A stretch of DNA of 64,000 nt, from NCBI RefSeq assembly GCF_000025705.1, contig NC_013959.1:62001-126000 (forward strand). Direction: 5' to 3'. The stretch is from Sideroxydans lithotrophicus ES-1. Its GTDB lineage: Bacteria > Pseudomonadota > Gammaproteobacteria > Burkholderiales > Gallionellaceae. The position numbers and the translations under genes are program-made. Below, one piece after another: positions 29,526-34,107 of this stretch (the stretch's first letter is position 1; every line of letters starts with the position of its first letter). Below the pieces are notes generated by a model. The model was not told the origin of the DNA and did no database searches. It worked only from the letters and a program-made list of their open reading frames with translations.

Positions 29526-29577
29526 TTCGCTAATAGCGAAATATATCTTGACATCGGCGAATATTATTTGCTAGTAT
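29526..29577 (+). promoter_or_regulatory. Retron promoter with overlapping dyad operators
   Basis: TTGACA (29548-29553), an 18-base spacer and TAGTAT (29572-29577) with a TGC extension give a strong sigma70 promoter. A perfect dyad TTCGCT-AAT-AGCGAA (29526-29540) abuts the -35 box. A second, imperfect copy, GCGAATATTATTTGC, lies between the -35 and -10 boxes. This layout fits repression by the Xre-type protein encoded downstream. Confidence 0.65.
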
Positions 29578-29583
29578 GCGCAC

Positions 29584-29860
29584 GTGGTAAAGAGATAATC
29601 TCGTTGCAGTATTGATCCGGCTCATTGGATTGTGGGGCGAAAGCCCTAACATTATCGCGGCTCCCATGCCCACGTAGTCCATCACGTAGCATGCCGACGC
29701 GAGAGACCACTGGCGAGCAGTGGTCTCTTATGTAAAGTAAGGGGAACAACCCGCCGTTTGCTCATCTTTAGTTACAGGCGAGAGTCGTCGCAATAGTGTG
29801 ACGACGTAACTGAAGGAGACAAAACATGCGTCTGAAACCCACCAAACGGCGGGGGTTAGT
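29584..29860 (+). ncRNA. Structured retron leader RNA (msr/msd candidate)
   Basis: The RNA starting near 29584 would be highly folded. Helices seen: GATAAT/ATTATC (29594-29656) enclosing GGGC-GAAA-GCCC; an imperfect long hairpin at 29655-29702 (TCGCG/CGCGA, GGC/GCC, ATGC/GCAT, ACGT/ACGT); an 11-bp perfect stem at 29702-29728 with a GCGAG loop; AGTTAC/GTAACT plus GTCGTC/GACGAC at about 29771-29811; and a long-range CGCCGTTTG/CAAACGGCG pairing (about 29752-29852). Position directly before a retron reverse transcriptase operon suggests that it contains msr-msd, but I cannot fix the a1/a2 ends or the branching G. The last part overlaps the 46-residue ORF. No other gene is seen in 29304-29525. Confidence 0.55.
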
Positions 29861-29966
29861 AGCTAGGTTTGTATCCGTGCTTCTGCGGCCACAGACTATA
29901 CGGATTGCCGTATTGGTTCTGCGTCTTGTGGCTTTGATAGCACGGATTATTGACCGGGTTATCTAA
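29826..29966 (+). CDS. 46-residue cationic hydrophobic peptide
   Basis: ATG at 29826 with GAAGGAG 7 bases upstream; stop at 29964-29966. The peptide has eleven Arg/Lys and one Asp, with hydrophobic runs (LVARFVSVLL, IRIAVLVLRLVALIARIIDRVI) that form amphipathic or membrane-inserting helices. This is the character of small membrane-active toxins. It lies between the retron leader RNA and the HTH gene, 33 bases before the latter, and its 5' end is inside predicted RNA helices that could hide the start. Not recognised as a known family; a toxin role is inferred. Confidence 0.6.
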   Translation: MRLKPTKRRGLVARFVSVLLRPQTIRIAVLVLRLVALIARIIDRVI

Positions 29967-29999: not shown

Positions 30000-30302
30000 A
30001 TGCTTAATCGTGCGCTTAAGCTACTGAGGACTTTCCATCAATTGTCACAAGTTGAATTGGCAAGGCGTTTAGAAATATCAAATTCCTACCTGAGCGAACT
30101 TGAGACTGGAGCCAAGACACCAAGCGTGGAGATATTAGAGCAGTATTCAGTTGTTTTTAAACTCCCAGCATCTTCGATATTGCTGTTTTCAGAACAGCTT
30201 GAGAGTACATCACTTGGTAATAAGTTAAAGATCAAAGCAGCGGATAAGGTATTAAAGTTGCTGGAGTGGGTGGCTGAAAAAGAGGCCATCGTGAATGACT
30301 AA
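30000..30302 (+). CDS. Xre-family HTH regulator of the retron operon
   Basis: 100 residues. A classical HTH_3 domain covers about 5-60 (RTFHQLSQVELARRLEISNSYLSELETG). The rest is helical without a known domain. AGAGG precedes the ATG. The end overlaps the reverse transcriptase start by 8 bases, so the two proteins are probably made together. The dyads over the promoter upstream are good candidates for its binding sites. HTH proteins are among the accessory proteins described in retron systems. Confidence 0.88.
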   Translation: MLNRALKLLRTFHQLSQVELARRLEISNSYLSELETGAKTPSVEILEQYSVVFKLPASSILLFSEQLESTSLGNKLKIKAADKVLKLLEWVAEKEAIVND

Positions 30303-31173
30303 AAGAATTCAGTACTCTGTTAATCAGTCCCCGTTTTATCGGTTGAACTCAAAACGAAAGTTAGCAGAGTTGCTTGGATTTGAAATGGCAGATTTCGCCA
30401 AACTTGTTGATGACTCAAATTATCATCTCTTTCTAAATAAACAGGGAAGAGAAATCCAGCATCCAATAAAAGAACTTGATCCTGTCCATAGTCGAATTGC
30501 AAAGCTCTTAGCAAGACTAGATCTCCCTGGCTACCTCCACTCACGCAAGGGGCGTTCCTATGTTTCAAATGCAGCCGCACACAAGTCTGATGTGCCTTTA
30601 ATCAAAACAGATATTTCGAAGTTCTATCCCAGCACATCCTTCAGTTCCGTATTCAATTTATTTCGCGAAAGTTTCGATTGCTCTCCTGATGTGGCGTGGC
30701 ACCTCGCGCGCCTCTGTTGCTATAAGGGCATACACCTTCCGACTGGTAGTTATTTGAGCGGGATAATCGCCTTTCTTGCACACAGATCTATGTTTGACGA
30801 AATCTTCGAACTCTCTCGTCGTGCAGGTTGCACCATGACCTGTTACGTTGATGACATTGTTTTGTCAGGGAGCAAGGCAACGAAGAAATTGCTTTATGAG
30901 GTCCGAGGAATCATTGCTCGACATGGGTTGGCAGCAAAGTGTGAAAAGTCAAAAACATTTCCTGCGAATAAGCCCAAAATCGTGACCGGGGTAGTGATTC
31001 GTACCGATGGCCTTGCTGTCCCCAATAATCGTCTGAAAGATGCCCGACGGGTTCGTGATCTGATCATGAAAACAAGTGACTTGAGAGAAAGGGATCGGCT
31101 GCGTTTGTCCCTTAAGGGAAAGTTGCAGGCAGCAAAACAAATTCACGCCTTTTGTCTGGCCAAGGAAGAATAG
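30295..31173 (+). CDS. Retron reverse transcriptase
   Basis: 292 residues. Retron hallmarks are present: NAxxH at 92-96 (NAAAH), the LIKTDISKFYPS motif with Asp106, the YVDD catalytic motif at 184-187, and VTG at 230-232. The usual LPQGxxTSP motif appears as LPTGSYLSG, a variant. It is short, with no fused effector domain. Such enzymes prime on their own noncoding RNA and make msDNA, and many retrons are anti-phage systems. Start ATG overlaps the HTH gene. The gene is more AT-rich than the flanking operons. Confidence 0.93.
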   Translation: MTKRIQYSVNQSPFYRLNSKRKLAELLGFEMADFAKLVDDSNYHLFLNKQGREIQHPIKELDPVHSRIAKLLARLDLPGYLHSRKGRSYVSNAAAHKSDVPLIKTDISKFYPSTSFSSVFNLFRESFDCSPDVAWHLARLCCYKGIHLPTGSYLSGIIAFLAHRSMFDEIFELSRRAGCTMTCYVDDIVLSGSKATKKLLYEVRGIIARHGLAAKCEKSKTFPANKPKIVTGVVIRTDGLAVPNNRLKDARRVRDLIMKTSDLRERDRLRLSLKGKLQAAKQIHAFCLAKEE

Positions 31174-31268
31174 GCGGTAATTTAGGTTGGTTGGCTAGCA
31201 GCGGTTATTTCACCGGACTGTCGCGAAATTGCGCCAAGCATTCGTCAAATTAAAGCGGAGTTGTGGAC

Positions 31269-32402
31269 ATGGAATTTGACGTAAACGACATGCGACAGAT
31301 TATGGTCGACGCTTTCCAACTTCGCCGCACCGATGATAAATTTACGTTCTACTACGACGAGACTAACAACATCCGCAAATTCTATTTAACGGACGATGGT
31401 ACGAACGTTTCGGAACATAATAATTTTGTCTTGGGCGGCATCGTCCTGTCGGAGGGGCAACCCCTTCCTGATATTTATACTCTTCGCTCCAAACTGGGGA
31501 TGCAGAGCAGCGCTCCCGAAATCAAGTTCGCTCATGTCGCCAAGGGAAACTTCGAACAAGTTCTGACCTCCAAAAGGTTGGAAATCTTCCTGTTTTGGAT
31601 CCTAGAACATGGTATTTCGATCCATTATTCCAGCGTCAACATCATCTACTGGGCCATCATCGACATAATCGATTCCATCTTGGCCGATGACATGTTCGAG
31701 CACTACCGGCCACACCACCAGCTCATGAAAAATGAACTGTATAGGCTGGTCAACCTCGACAAGCCGACGTTCTTGGCATTGATGAAGCAGCATCGCTACC
31801 CAGACATCCGGCGTGGCGAGACGGCCAATTTCATTGCCGATGTCGACACGTACCTCGATGCCCATAGTCCTAAGGATGACAACCTTCCGTCGCTCATGCT
31901 TAAGGCCTTGATTGAAAAATCAGCATCTTTACCTGAACTCGCTTTCTTGGTCGACGAAGAGGCGGATATGCTCATCGAAAGCTTCCAAGGCTTCTACACG
32001 CGCCCAATCATGCTTTTCAAAAACGCCCTCCACATCTTTGACCGCGAAATCCAAATTGAAAGAAGTTTGAACGGTGCCAAGTTCAGGGATGGTTCACAAC
32101 ACGTCAATTTTTCATTTTCTGATTCAAAAAGCGAGCCAGGCATCCAAATCGCCGACGTGGTGACTGGATTCCTTGGGAAATATCAAAGCTTCGTGGAGGA
32201 GCATTCGCTGCAGGAGCTCATGAAGCGGAAAAACTCATGGAATGAAATTCAAACTGCCAATTTTAACTTGCTGCGCCGATTGATCGACCTTTCGGACGAG
32301 GTCAGCAATGCATTCATTCATCGCACGACGGCGATGGATACCGAATGGAAGGATGAAGCATTCATGCATGATCGTCCGCCGATGCCTCATTTACTGCGTT
32401 GA
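31269..32402 (+). CDS. DUF3800 protein, retron accessory candidate
   Basis: 377 residues from the ATG at 31269 with GGAG 8 bases upstream; the GTG at 31263 is too close to that site. DUF3800 features: FTFYYDETNN near residue 25, an LVDEEADML segment mid-protein, and SKSEPGIQIADVVTGFLGKY near 295. The acidic residues recall an RNase H-like fold, but nuclease activity is an inference. It lies 95 bases after the reverse transcriptase on the same strand. DUF3800 proteins have been reported as retron-associated effectors, so it is a likely third part of the system. Confidence 0.82.
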   Translation: MEFDVNDMRQIMVDAFQLRRTDDKFTFYYDETNNIRKFYLTDDGTNVSEHNNFVLGGIVLSEGQPLPDIYTLRSKLGMQSSAPEIKFAHVAKGNFEQVLTSKRLEIFLFWILEHGISIHYSSVNIIYWAIIDIIDSILADDMFEHYRPHHQLMKNELYRLVNLDKPTFLALMKQHRYPDIRRGETANFIADVDTYLDAHSPKDDNLPSLMLKALIEKSASLPELAFLVDEEADMLIESFQGFYTRPIMLFKNALHIFDREIQIERSLNGAKFRDGSQHVNFSFSDSKSEPGIQIADVVTGFLGKYQSFVEEHSLQELMKRKNSWNEIQTANFNLLRRLIDLSDEVSNAFIHRTTAMDTEWKDEAFMHDRPPMPHLLR

Positions 32403-33493: not shown

Positions 33494-33889
33494 TTAGGCG
33501 GCGATAAAACCCGGCAAATGAGAAGCCTTTATGTCGAAGGTTGCCGTCGATCGACATCCCAGACGTCGGTTTTTTGCGCAGATCAGGCAATCAGCAAAGC
33601 CGGCAGTTGTATCTTTCCACATGAAAAGAGCCTCCTCAATGGCCGGCTCATCTTCAAATTGAATATCGGTTGCATTCAGTAAGCCGGAAATAGCTTCGAT
33701 GATCTGGCTTTTAGGTACGGCATATCGGCTACGTAACACCCATTCAGTTTCCATGAGAACCATTTGGTTTACGAAAACGCTGCGACCAGCTGCAACTTCC
33801 CGCCTGATCAGCTTGCGAGCCTTTTCGAACTGGGCTTCGTCGTCCCGAACCAAAAAGCGAACGAGGACGTTAGTGTCAATTCCAAGCAT
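33494..33889 (-). CDS. vapC: VapC-type PIN-domain toxin
   Basis: 131 residues with a complete PIN-domain acidic set: Asp5 (GIDTNVLVRFL), Glu47 (LMETEWVL), Asp100 (GFADCLI) and Asp119 (FDIKA). These RNases cleave specific RNAs when the antitoxin is lost. The ATG overlaps the antitoxin stop (TAATG). The end GCCTAAC at the stop codon also resembles the start of an attC site, though no matching far end is seen. Confidence 0.92.
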   Translation of the reverse strand: MLGIDTNVLVRFLVRDDEAQFEKARKLIRREVAAGRSVFVNQMVLMETEWVLRSRYAVPKSQIIEAISGLLNATDIQFEDEPAIEEALFMWKDTTAGFADCLICAKNRRLGCRSTATFDIKASHLPGFIAA

Positions 33890-34107
33890 TAGCGTGACAA
33901 TTGCTCTACAGGAACAGGCTTCCGCCCCTTCTTGTGCAGCATGCCAGCCAGATCGGCAGCGCTCTTGCTTTTCACTCGCATGACGACGGTAGAATCAGGC
34001 ATCAACGTGAAGGTCATTCGGTCTCCAGCCTTCATGTGAAGGCTATCCCGGATTTCCTTTGGAATTGTCGTTTGCCCCTTGCTGGTAAGTGTTGCATCGG
34101 TTGTCAT
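33889..34107 (-). CDS. vapB: AbrB/SpoVT-type antitoxin (VapB-like)
   Basis: 72 residues with an N-terminal AbrB/MazE swapped-hairpin DNA-binding domain (ATLTSKGQTTIPKEIRDSL) and a C-terminal tail that would bind the PIN toxin. AAGGAG precedes the ATG. It is the first gene of the pair and likely represses it through the dyad upstream. Confidence 0.92.
   Translation of the reverse strand: MTTDATLTSKGQTTIPKEIRDSLHMKAGDRMTFTLMPDSTVVMRVKSKSAADLAGMLHKKGRKPVPVEQLSR

Follow-up and report, generated by a model that had tools for sequence, protein, structure and literature searches.

Retrons as a class pair a reverse transcriptase (RT) with an effector (available part of PMC12948488), and in type-VI retrons the RT is associated with DNA-binding and small auxiliary proteins (available part of PMC8541194, citing Mestre 2020). 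Short hypothetical proteins 5' of the helix-turn-helix (HTH) gene have been noted in Klebsiella phage ST147-VIM1phi7.1 and in P2_2H1, both of which are among the phages compared below (same part of PMC8541194); there the small ORF is only "auxiliary" or hypothetical, and nothing is said of an effector role, of a pseudoknot in the RNA or of an operator. We found no functional study of a type-VI retron (i.e. of toxicity, translation or defence) in the open-access literature, most subscription papers lying outside the search; the available parts of PMC12548924, PMC9122126, PMC13405049, PMC12948488, PMC8934634 and PMC10264812 hold nothing on type-VI function, and that of PMC13249269 mentions 'retron VI' once. 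The small type-VI proteins are already known in print, and the locus of Sideroxydans lithotrophicus ES-1 described here is a further member, sharing with other type-VI retrons, which occur in P2-like and Mu-like prophages and on plasmids, an HTH_VI protein, an RT_VI protein, an upstream non-coding RNA (ncRNA) and a small upstream ORF.

Type IV retrons (Ec48) encode a hydrophobic membrane effector beside the RT and ncRNA, as ES-1 does a hydrophobic candidate, although the Ec48 effector is a larger, two-transmembrane protein; we know of no overlap between an effector ORF of the Ec48 type and the retron RNA structure. Type I toxins, e.g. TisB, Hok and TimP, are small membrane peptides, hydrophobic and in many cases cationic, whose translation starts are occluded and which are controlled by antisense RNA, whereas control of the ES-1 peptide would fall to the retron RNA, the HTH protein and the RT; no sequence match between this peptide and a known type I toxin family was found in Pfam, NCBIfam, PADLOC or PHROG. 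In the type IX retron Kva2 a DNA-binding helical protein, the RT and msDNA hold a toxin, the toxin being a HEPN RNase and the DNA-binding protein a winged helix that binds msDNA (available part of PMC13405049), whereas the HTH protein of the ES-1 type has a conserved candidate operator in the genome. DRT2 combines a reverse transcriptase, a pseudoknotted RNA and a toxic product, the toxic gene being assembled by reverse transcription (available part of PMC12039810); the ES-1 ORF, in contrast, is already encoded in the genome.

The ES-1 features are given below by their positions in the window, i.e. the whole 64,000-nucleotide stretch of DNA that was analysed.

29526..29540, no strand assigned: palindromic candidate operator TTCGCT-AAT-AGCGAA, conserved 5' of the promoter, likely site of HTH autoregulation
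29548..29577, + strand: sigma-70-like promoter TTGACA-18 nt-TAGTAT, a sequence match
29588..29593, + strand: a1 (TAAAGA), 5' end of the ncRNA, from own- versus cross-locus pairing and helix 1 (3 of 5 pairs changed on both sides)
29616..29646, + strand: msr, adjacent stem-loops SL1 (29616-29629) and SL2 (29634-29646), helices 2 and 3
29701..29729, + strand: msd hairpin (GAGAGACCACTGGCGAGCAGTGGTCTCTT), helix 4 (6 of 11 pairs changed on both sides)
29750..29760, + strand: P1 5' arm (CCCGCCGTTTG), msd 3' end, pairing with 29843-29853
29765..29770, + strand: a2 (TCTTTA), 3' end of the canonical ncRNA, pairing with a1
29766..29815, + strand: P2, bulged hairpin ending in the Shine-Dalgarno (SD) sequence, from folds of 37 loci and RNAalifold, helices 6 and 7
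29812..29818, + strand: SD sequence GAAGGAG, 7 nt 5' of the peptide ATG, partly within P2
29826..29966, + strand: peptide ORF, ATG start, 46 aa, cationic with a hydrophobic C-terminal half, conserved in relatives, proposed effector
29843..29853, + strand: P1 3' arm (CAAACGGCGGG), within peptide codons 6-10, pairing with 29750-29760
30000..30302, + strand: Xre-type HTH protein (HTH_VI), from PADLOC and Pfam HTH_3
30295..31173, + strand: retron reverse transcriptase (RT_VI), from PADLOC and RT motifs
31263..32402, + strand: DUF3800 protein (PADLOC PDC-S51), an optional neighbour, the next gene varying or missing in relatives

The protein encoded at 30000..30302 (+) matches PADLOC HTH_VI (PDLC02926, E 1.9e-33) and, as an Xre-type protein, Pfam HTH_3, whilst that encoded at 30295..31173 (+) matches PADLOC RT_VI (PDLC02952, E 1e-81), with RT_III-A second best at 2.3e-35; the two profile matches therefore identify a type-VI retron, composed of HTH protein, RT, retron RNA and a small cationic peptide. 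The HTH_VI gene lies directly 5' of the RT_VI gene and its end overlaps the RT start, and the RT contains NAAAH at residue 92, YVDD at 184 and VTG at 230, corresponding to NAXXH, YXDD and VTG, which we take to be the hallmark motif set of retron RTs. The locus thus presents RT_VI, HTH_VI, the RT motifs, an ncRNA with msr, msd, a1 and a2, and a small auxiliary ORF, i.e. the feature set of type VI. Assignment to type VII (RT-DUF3800) was ruled out, as the RT reaches 272.3 bits with RT_VI but 70.2 with VII-A1, and as the DUF3800 protein here is the product of a separate gene, unfused to the RT. Elsewhere in the same genome, a second, distant RT match (L002, 1973270-1973641) reaches E 1.5e-6 to RT_VI.

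The peptide ORF (29826-29966, +; product MRLKPTKRRGLVARFVSVLLRPQTIRIAVLVLRLVALIARIIDRVI) was found as the sequence-only reading had described it, i.e. as 46 codons preceded by GAAGGAG and encoding eleven basic residues and a hydrophobic run; there is a single acidic residue, the net charge is +10, and the most hydrophobic 18-residue window (mean Kyte-Doolittle 2.34) falls in the C-terminal half. The coordinates likewise bear out its proposed siting 3' of the leader RNA and 5' of the HTH gene (30000-30302), which the RT gene follows. Searches of Pfam, NCBIfam, PADLOC and PHROG, where such short peptides are poorly covered, and of a plasmid collection returned nothing for the ES-1 peptide, and a profile of the peptide family matched no solved structure in the PDB; its relative in a Klebsiella phage (L071) falls into two PHROGs, with function unassigned in both. 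The expectation that ORF callers would miss such a peptide proved right in part only, as relatives are annotated in 12 of 20 annotated phage or plasmid regions (in one of them with a longer start) and in 5 of 5 from E. coli. The annotated 130-aa protein gp41 of NC_049386.1 (L070, 1256-1648) probably begins too early, within the retron RNA; relatives point instead to a start at 1493 and a product of 51 aa.

Relatives of the HTH-RT pair were drawn from a genome collection, GTDB genomes, phages and plasmids, giving 37 loci: the ES-1 window, 35 with clear tblastn matches to both HTH and RT, and L075, with the RT only. These are part of what exists, 14 of 40 listed plasmid records having been used (79 matched, 29 of them Burkholderia) and no Burkholderia or Staphylococcus plasmid being among the 37; from phages, 7 of 17 records were used, the remainder being duplicates, near-copies and one 1,927-base record. 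L042-L059 and L061-L066 were left out of the counts, and L001, L012, L067 and L095 are the ES-1 window itself. L083 closely duplicates L080, as L086 does L077; L083 and L086 were therefore dropped from the permutation tests, but kept in the ORF, composition, fixed-rule, operator and start-opening counts.

A comparable cationic ORF occupies the same place in all 37 loci (ES-1 included), which come from alpha-, beta- and gammaproteobacteria, from P2-like and Mu-like phages, and from one plasmid of cyanobacterial origin. It encodes 46-86 aa on the same strand, just 5' of the HTH gene (in L075, of the RT gene), the choice where a locus offered several ORFs or starts being made by matching spacing, SD and composition. 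The longest peptide, of 86 aa, is that of L068, a locus at first taken to be without one; the frame is present but runs into the HTH start. The sequence-only reading had staked its proposal on conservation of the frame in related retron loci, and in this respect it is upheld. A fixed rule, set only after the peptides had been inspected (ATG, SD, 40-75 aa, end 25-70 nt before the HTH gene, charge of at least +2, hydrophobic C-terminal half), was passed by 35 of the 36 type-VI loci with an HTH, by 10 of 3841 random anchors placed within the same loci, and by 0 of 25 other HTH loci, a control weaker than it looks because the anchor is a profile match, possibly off the true gene start. With ATG, SD and length alone, the corresponding values are 35/36, 42/3841 and 0/25. 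These 25 controls are L013-L037, among which L013-L017 score HTH_VI (E 2.2e-28 to 9.5e-22) and have distant RTs.

Net charge is positive in every one of the 37 peptides, ranging from +2 (L070 and L071, where hydrophobicity is also modest) to +15 (L075), and the N-terminal half is more net-charged than the C-terminal half in all except L089 (36/37). Betaproteobacterial, alphaproteobacterial and cyanobacterial members have in common a C-terminal pattern in which [RKN]PxT leads into a hydrophobic stretch interrupted at intervals by basic residues; PxT is missing from the gammaproteobacterial phage members L070-L074. The hydrophobic half is kept in character, with zero invariant residues in 29 aligned members. 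L075 itself, an unverified 4,592-base record of Salmonella phage S.Kent 1-2-1, combines a type-VI-like RT with a very basic peptide of 75 aa; an HTH gene was not found there by tblastn.

Substitutions were compared among six distinct E. coli/Klebsiella sequences (L094 being identical to L070 in the peptide). Pairs with pS >0.2 give pN/pS of 0.27-0.53 at constant ORF length (e.g. L070/L093, pS 0.73 and pN 0.29; L071/L091, pS 0.37 and pN 0.10), whilst close pairs are noisy and show no purifying selection (L070/L090, 7 nonsynonymous changes against 0 synonymous); in most pairs the stronger constraint is on the HTH, whilst in pairs with L093 HTH and peptide are about equally constrained. Homologues of two of the peptides occur at retron loci only (9/9 phage records and 3/3 plasmid records). 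The P2-type locus was matched in 99 of 5426 complete E. coli genomes, 98 of them covering at least 80% of the query, and scans of viral contigs with the RT and with the HTH returned no relatives. Since distant relatives have a similar peptide at the corresponding position, the ES-1 ORF is very probably a conserved protein-coding part of the type-VI retron.

Upstream of the ORF, a six-locus alignment (ES-1 and L003-L007) supports a structured leader, 31 of 54 hand-drawn pairs being changed on both sides; none of 500 shuffles reaches this value, and slid structures give 3-13, a comparison in which drawing the structure by hand from L005 somewhat favours it. The a1 of ES-1 itself is out of register, and its SL1 poorly aligned, in this alignment. 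Of the 18 pairs in helices 6 and 7, which form P2, 13 are changed on both sides, and an automatic consensus of the 3' part recovered both P1 and P2, one or more sequences showing two-sided changes at 19 of its 34 pairs; folds further upstream include L071 in part and leave out L072-L073. For a1/a2, a broad-window comparison of own-locus with cross-locus pairing was negative (own 17.01, cross 17.03), whereas an anchored window, picked after that failure, gave 13.5 against 12.1 over 33 loci (permutation 32/20000), L008 and L088 having no msr by the rule used and being left out. Because of the negative broad-window result, the a1/a2 assignment rests on the anchored test together with the six-locus covariation. 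Rfam returned two matches only, both far below gathering scores.

P1 was at first taken for the retron a1/a2 stem, an assignment dropped once upstream folds revealed msr and a1/a2 5' of it. Over 35 loci the two P1 arms pair better within their own locus than across loci (22.2 against 15.9; permutation 0/20000), in test windows set after the arms had been seen, and 21 of the 35 loci individually exceed the 95th percentile; with the discovery loci and the betaproteobacterial clade removed, the permutation result is again 0/20000 over 26 loci, 15 of which lie above. Among the six E. coli/Klebsiella sequences, the P1 3' arm has 0 of 9 variable sites, whereas 77 of the 144 remaining ORF sites vary. 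When 62 sources were scanned with a covariance model derived from six betaproteobacterial sequences, there were 12 matches at E <=1, namely the six builders, L068, L039, L009 and L088 (E <0.01), L077 (0.19) and an off-target match in L071; the case for P1 across phyla therefore rests on the own-versus-cross test. On this pairing evidence we consider the P1 helix to be real, and no earlier report of it was found in the literature searched.

The order a1, P1 5' arm, a2, P1 3' arm means that the two helices cross, and would form a pseudoknot if both were present together. By the usual retron logic the RT begins copying next to a2, so that the P1 5' arm is expected to be copied first. Taken together, the pairings indicate that the leader RNA is one composite structure, in which msr, msd and a1/a2 are followed by P1-P2, extending through the peptide SD and its early codons.

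The sequence-only reading had placed the ORF start within helices of the leader, and the start region does lie inside conserved, covarying RNA helices. It had further suggested that RNA structure keeps the peptide silent, for which the folding calculations offer qualified support. Opening the interval -16..+5 costs a mean of 10.0 kcal/mol at the peptide start, the mean for the HTH start being 7.7 and that for shuffled flanks 7.4, and is costlier at the peptide in 30 of 36 loci; the values for -16..+20 are 12.7 and 11.9 (higher in 23/36), and for -20..+35 they are 22.2 and 17.3 (higher in 30/36). The predicted effect is modest and is reversed in the E. coli/Klebsiella phage loci L070 and L071, where the peptide start is the easier to open (5.6-5.7, against 12.6-12.8 at the HTH). 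Concealment of the start codon by P1 is made less likely by these calculations, since removal of the P1 5' arm barely alters opening of the two shorter intervals (10.0 to 9.9 for -16..+5 and 12.7 to 12.5 for -16..+20), although it has some effect on the longest (22.2 to 19.9 for -20..+35); in many folds P2 covers part of the SD, as judged by eye and uncounted. The leader RNA may thus silence the peptide in part, the calculated occlusion of its start region being modest.

A second level of control is suggested 5' of the promoter. The palindrome TTCGCT-N3-AGCGAA is found, with <=3 mismatches, in the interval -420..-200 of 33 of the 37 loci, compared with 0.08 expected per interval, and in 25 of these 33 the best -35 candidate starts 20-24 nt after the operator start. 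It is missing from this interval in L011, L070, L071 and L075, the first three of which have an HTH. From the promoter match, the ES-1 transcript would be expected to start at about 29584, just 5' of a1. The operator stands beside the promoter, and the HTH protein is therefore probably an autoregulator in most loci; in pointing to a transcription factor, the operator weakens the case for the HTH as a protein antitoxin.

Apart from the HTH protein and the RT, only the peptide recurs throughout the loci examined, and because retrons carry effectors we consider it moderately probable that the peptide is the toxic, membrane-acting effector of the type-VI retron. In our proposal its production would be kept low by action of the HTH protein on the operator and by structure in the leader RNA. 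Such peptide as is made would be neutralised by the HTH-RT-msDNA complex, perhaps through binding of its basic head to msDNA, a step suggested by analogy with other retrons; phage damage to msDNA or RT would then free the peptide, and growth would stop. The basic head and hydrophobic helix would damage the inner membrane, a mode that we infer from composition and that is less obvious for L070 and L071, with their charge of +2 and modest hydrophobicity. A further observation against a peptide effector is that in some loci a TIR, DUF4062 or DUF3800 gene close behind the RT could fill this role there. The proposal provides a concrete effector candidate for type-VI retrons, together with an RNA map (a1/a2, msr, msd, P1 and P2) and an operator; should the peptide prove toxic, peptides would join the kinds of effector used by retrons.

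The peptide might be a non-toxic cofactor instead, serving the RT-msDNA particle as a subunit that binds nucleic acid or anchors it to the membrane, with its basic head binding ncRNA or msDNA and its hydrophobic helix packing on RT or HTH or tethering the particle to the membrane. We regard this as possible but rather unlikely. The charge asymmetry seen in 36 of 37 members and the confinement of homologues of two peptides to RT loci are what would be expected of such a subunit; a hydrophobic half without an invariant residue in 29 aligned members would, however, be unusual for a docking surface, and were the peptide a cofactor only, loci without a downstream gene would be left without an effector.

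A more specific elaboration of the effector proposal, which we think unlikely, is that reverse transcription licenses the toxin: because the P1 5' arm is paired with toxin codons, forming a pseudoknot with the a1/a2 primer helix, copying it into msDNA would break this pairing and expose the toxin message. Were this so, the toxin would be translated only from transcripts that had already yielded antitoxin msDNA, the msDNA 5' end would match the toxin codons in sequence, and cDNA synthesis would itself be the switch for effector translation. Coupling of copying to translation through P1 would be an unusual way to order antitoxin and toxin.

It is improbable that the effector is instead the downstream gene, with the peptide as an accessory. 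The DUF3800 gene of ES-1, which matches PADLOC PDC-S51, shares the strand of the RT and begins 89 nt beyond it, and TIR (ThsB-like) genes lie 19, 79 and 19 nt after the RT in L077, L084 and L086, respectively, but the gene at this position differs between loci, being DUF4062 in L087, an SNF2 helicase in L003 and a phage baseplate gene in L072. Moreover, 13 of the 37 loci have no same-strand ORF of at least 100 aa starting within 300 nt after the RT, a count that includes L008 and L011, where the DNA ends after the RT, and L009, where it is short. DUF3800 is probably not the common effector; the varying genes after the RT are possibly optional second effectors.

That the ORF is a regulatory leader peptide, the translation of which remodels P1 and controls reverse transcription or HTH/RT expression whilst the product is inert, we hold to be very improbable: P1 does pair ORF codons with the msd 3' end, and its arm is invariant in the six E. 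coli/Klebsiella sequences, but diverged pairs indicate protein-level selection on the whole ORF, and the hydrophobic C-terminal half recurs across phyla, whereas leader peptides rarely conserve a long C-terminus. A chance ORF within a structured leader, as its shortness and the want of library and plasmid matches to the ES-1 peptide might suggest, is scarcely credible given its presence in 37/37 loci, the control values of 0/25 and 10/3841, and the substitution pattern.

Near the retron, at 33494-34107 on the - strand, the window also encodes a PIN-domain protein and a MazE/PrlF-like antitoxin, which together form an ordinary-looking toxin-antitoxin pair.
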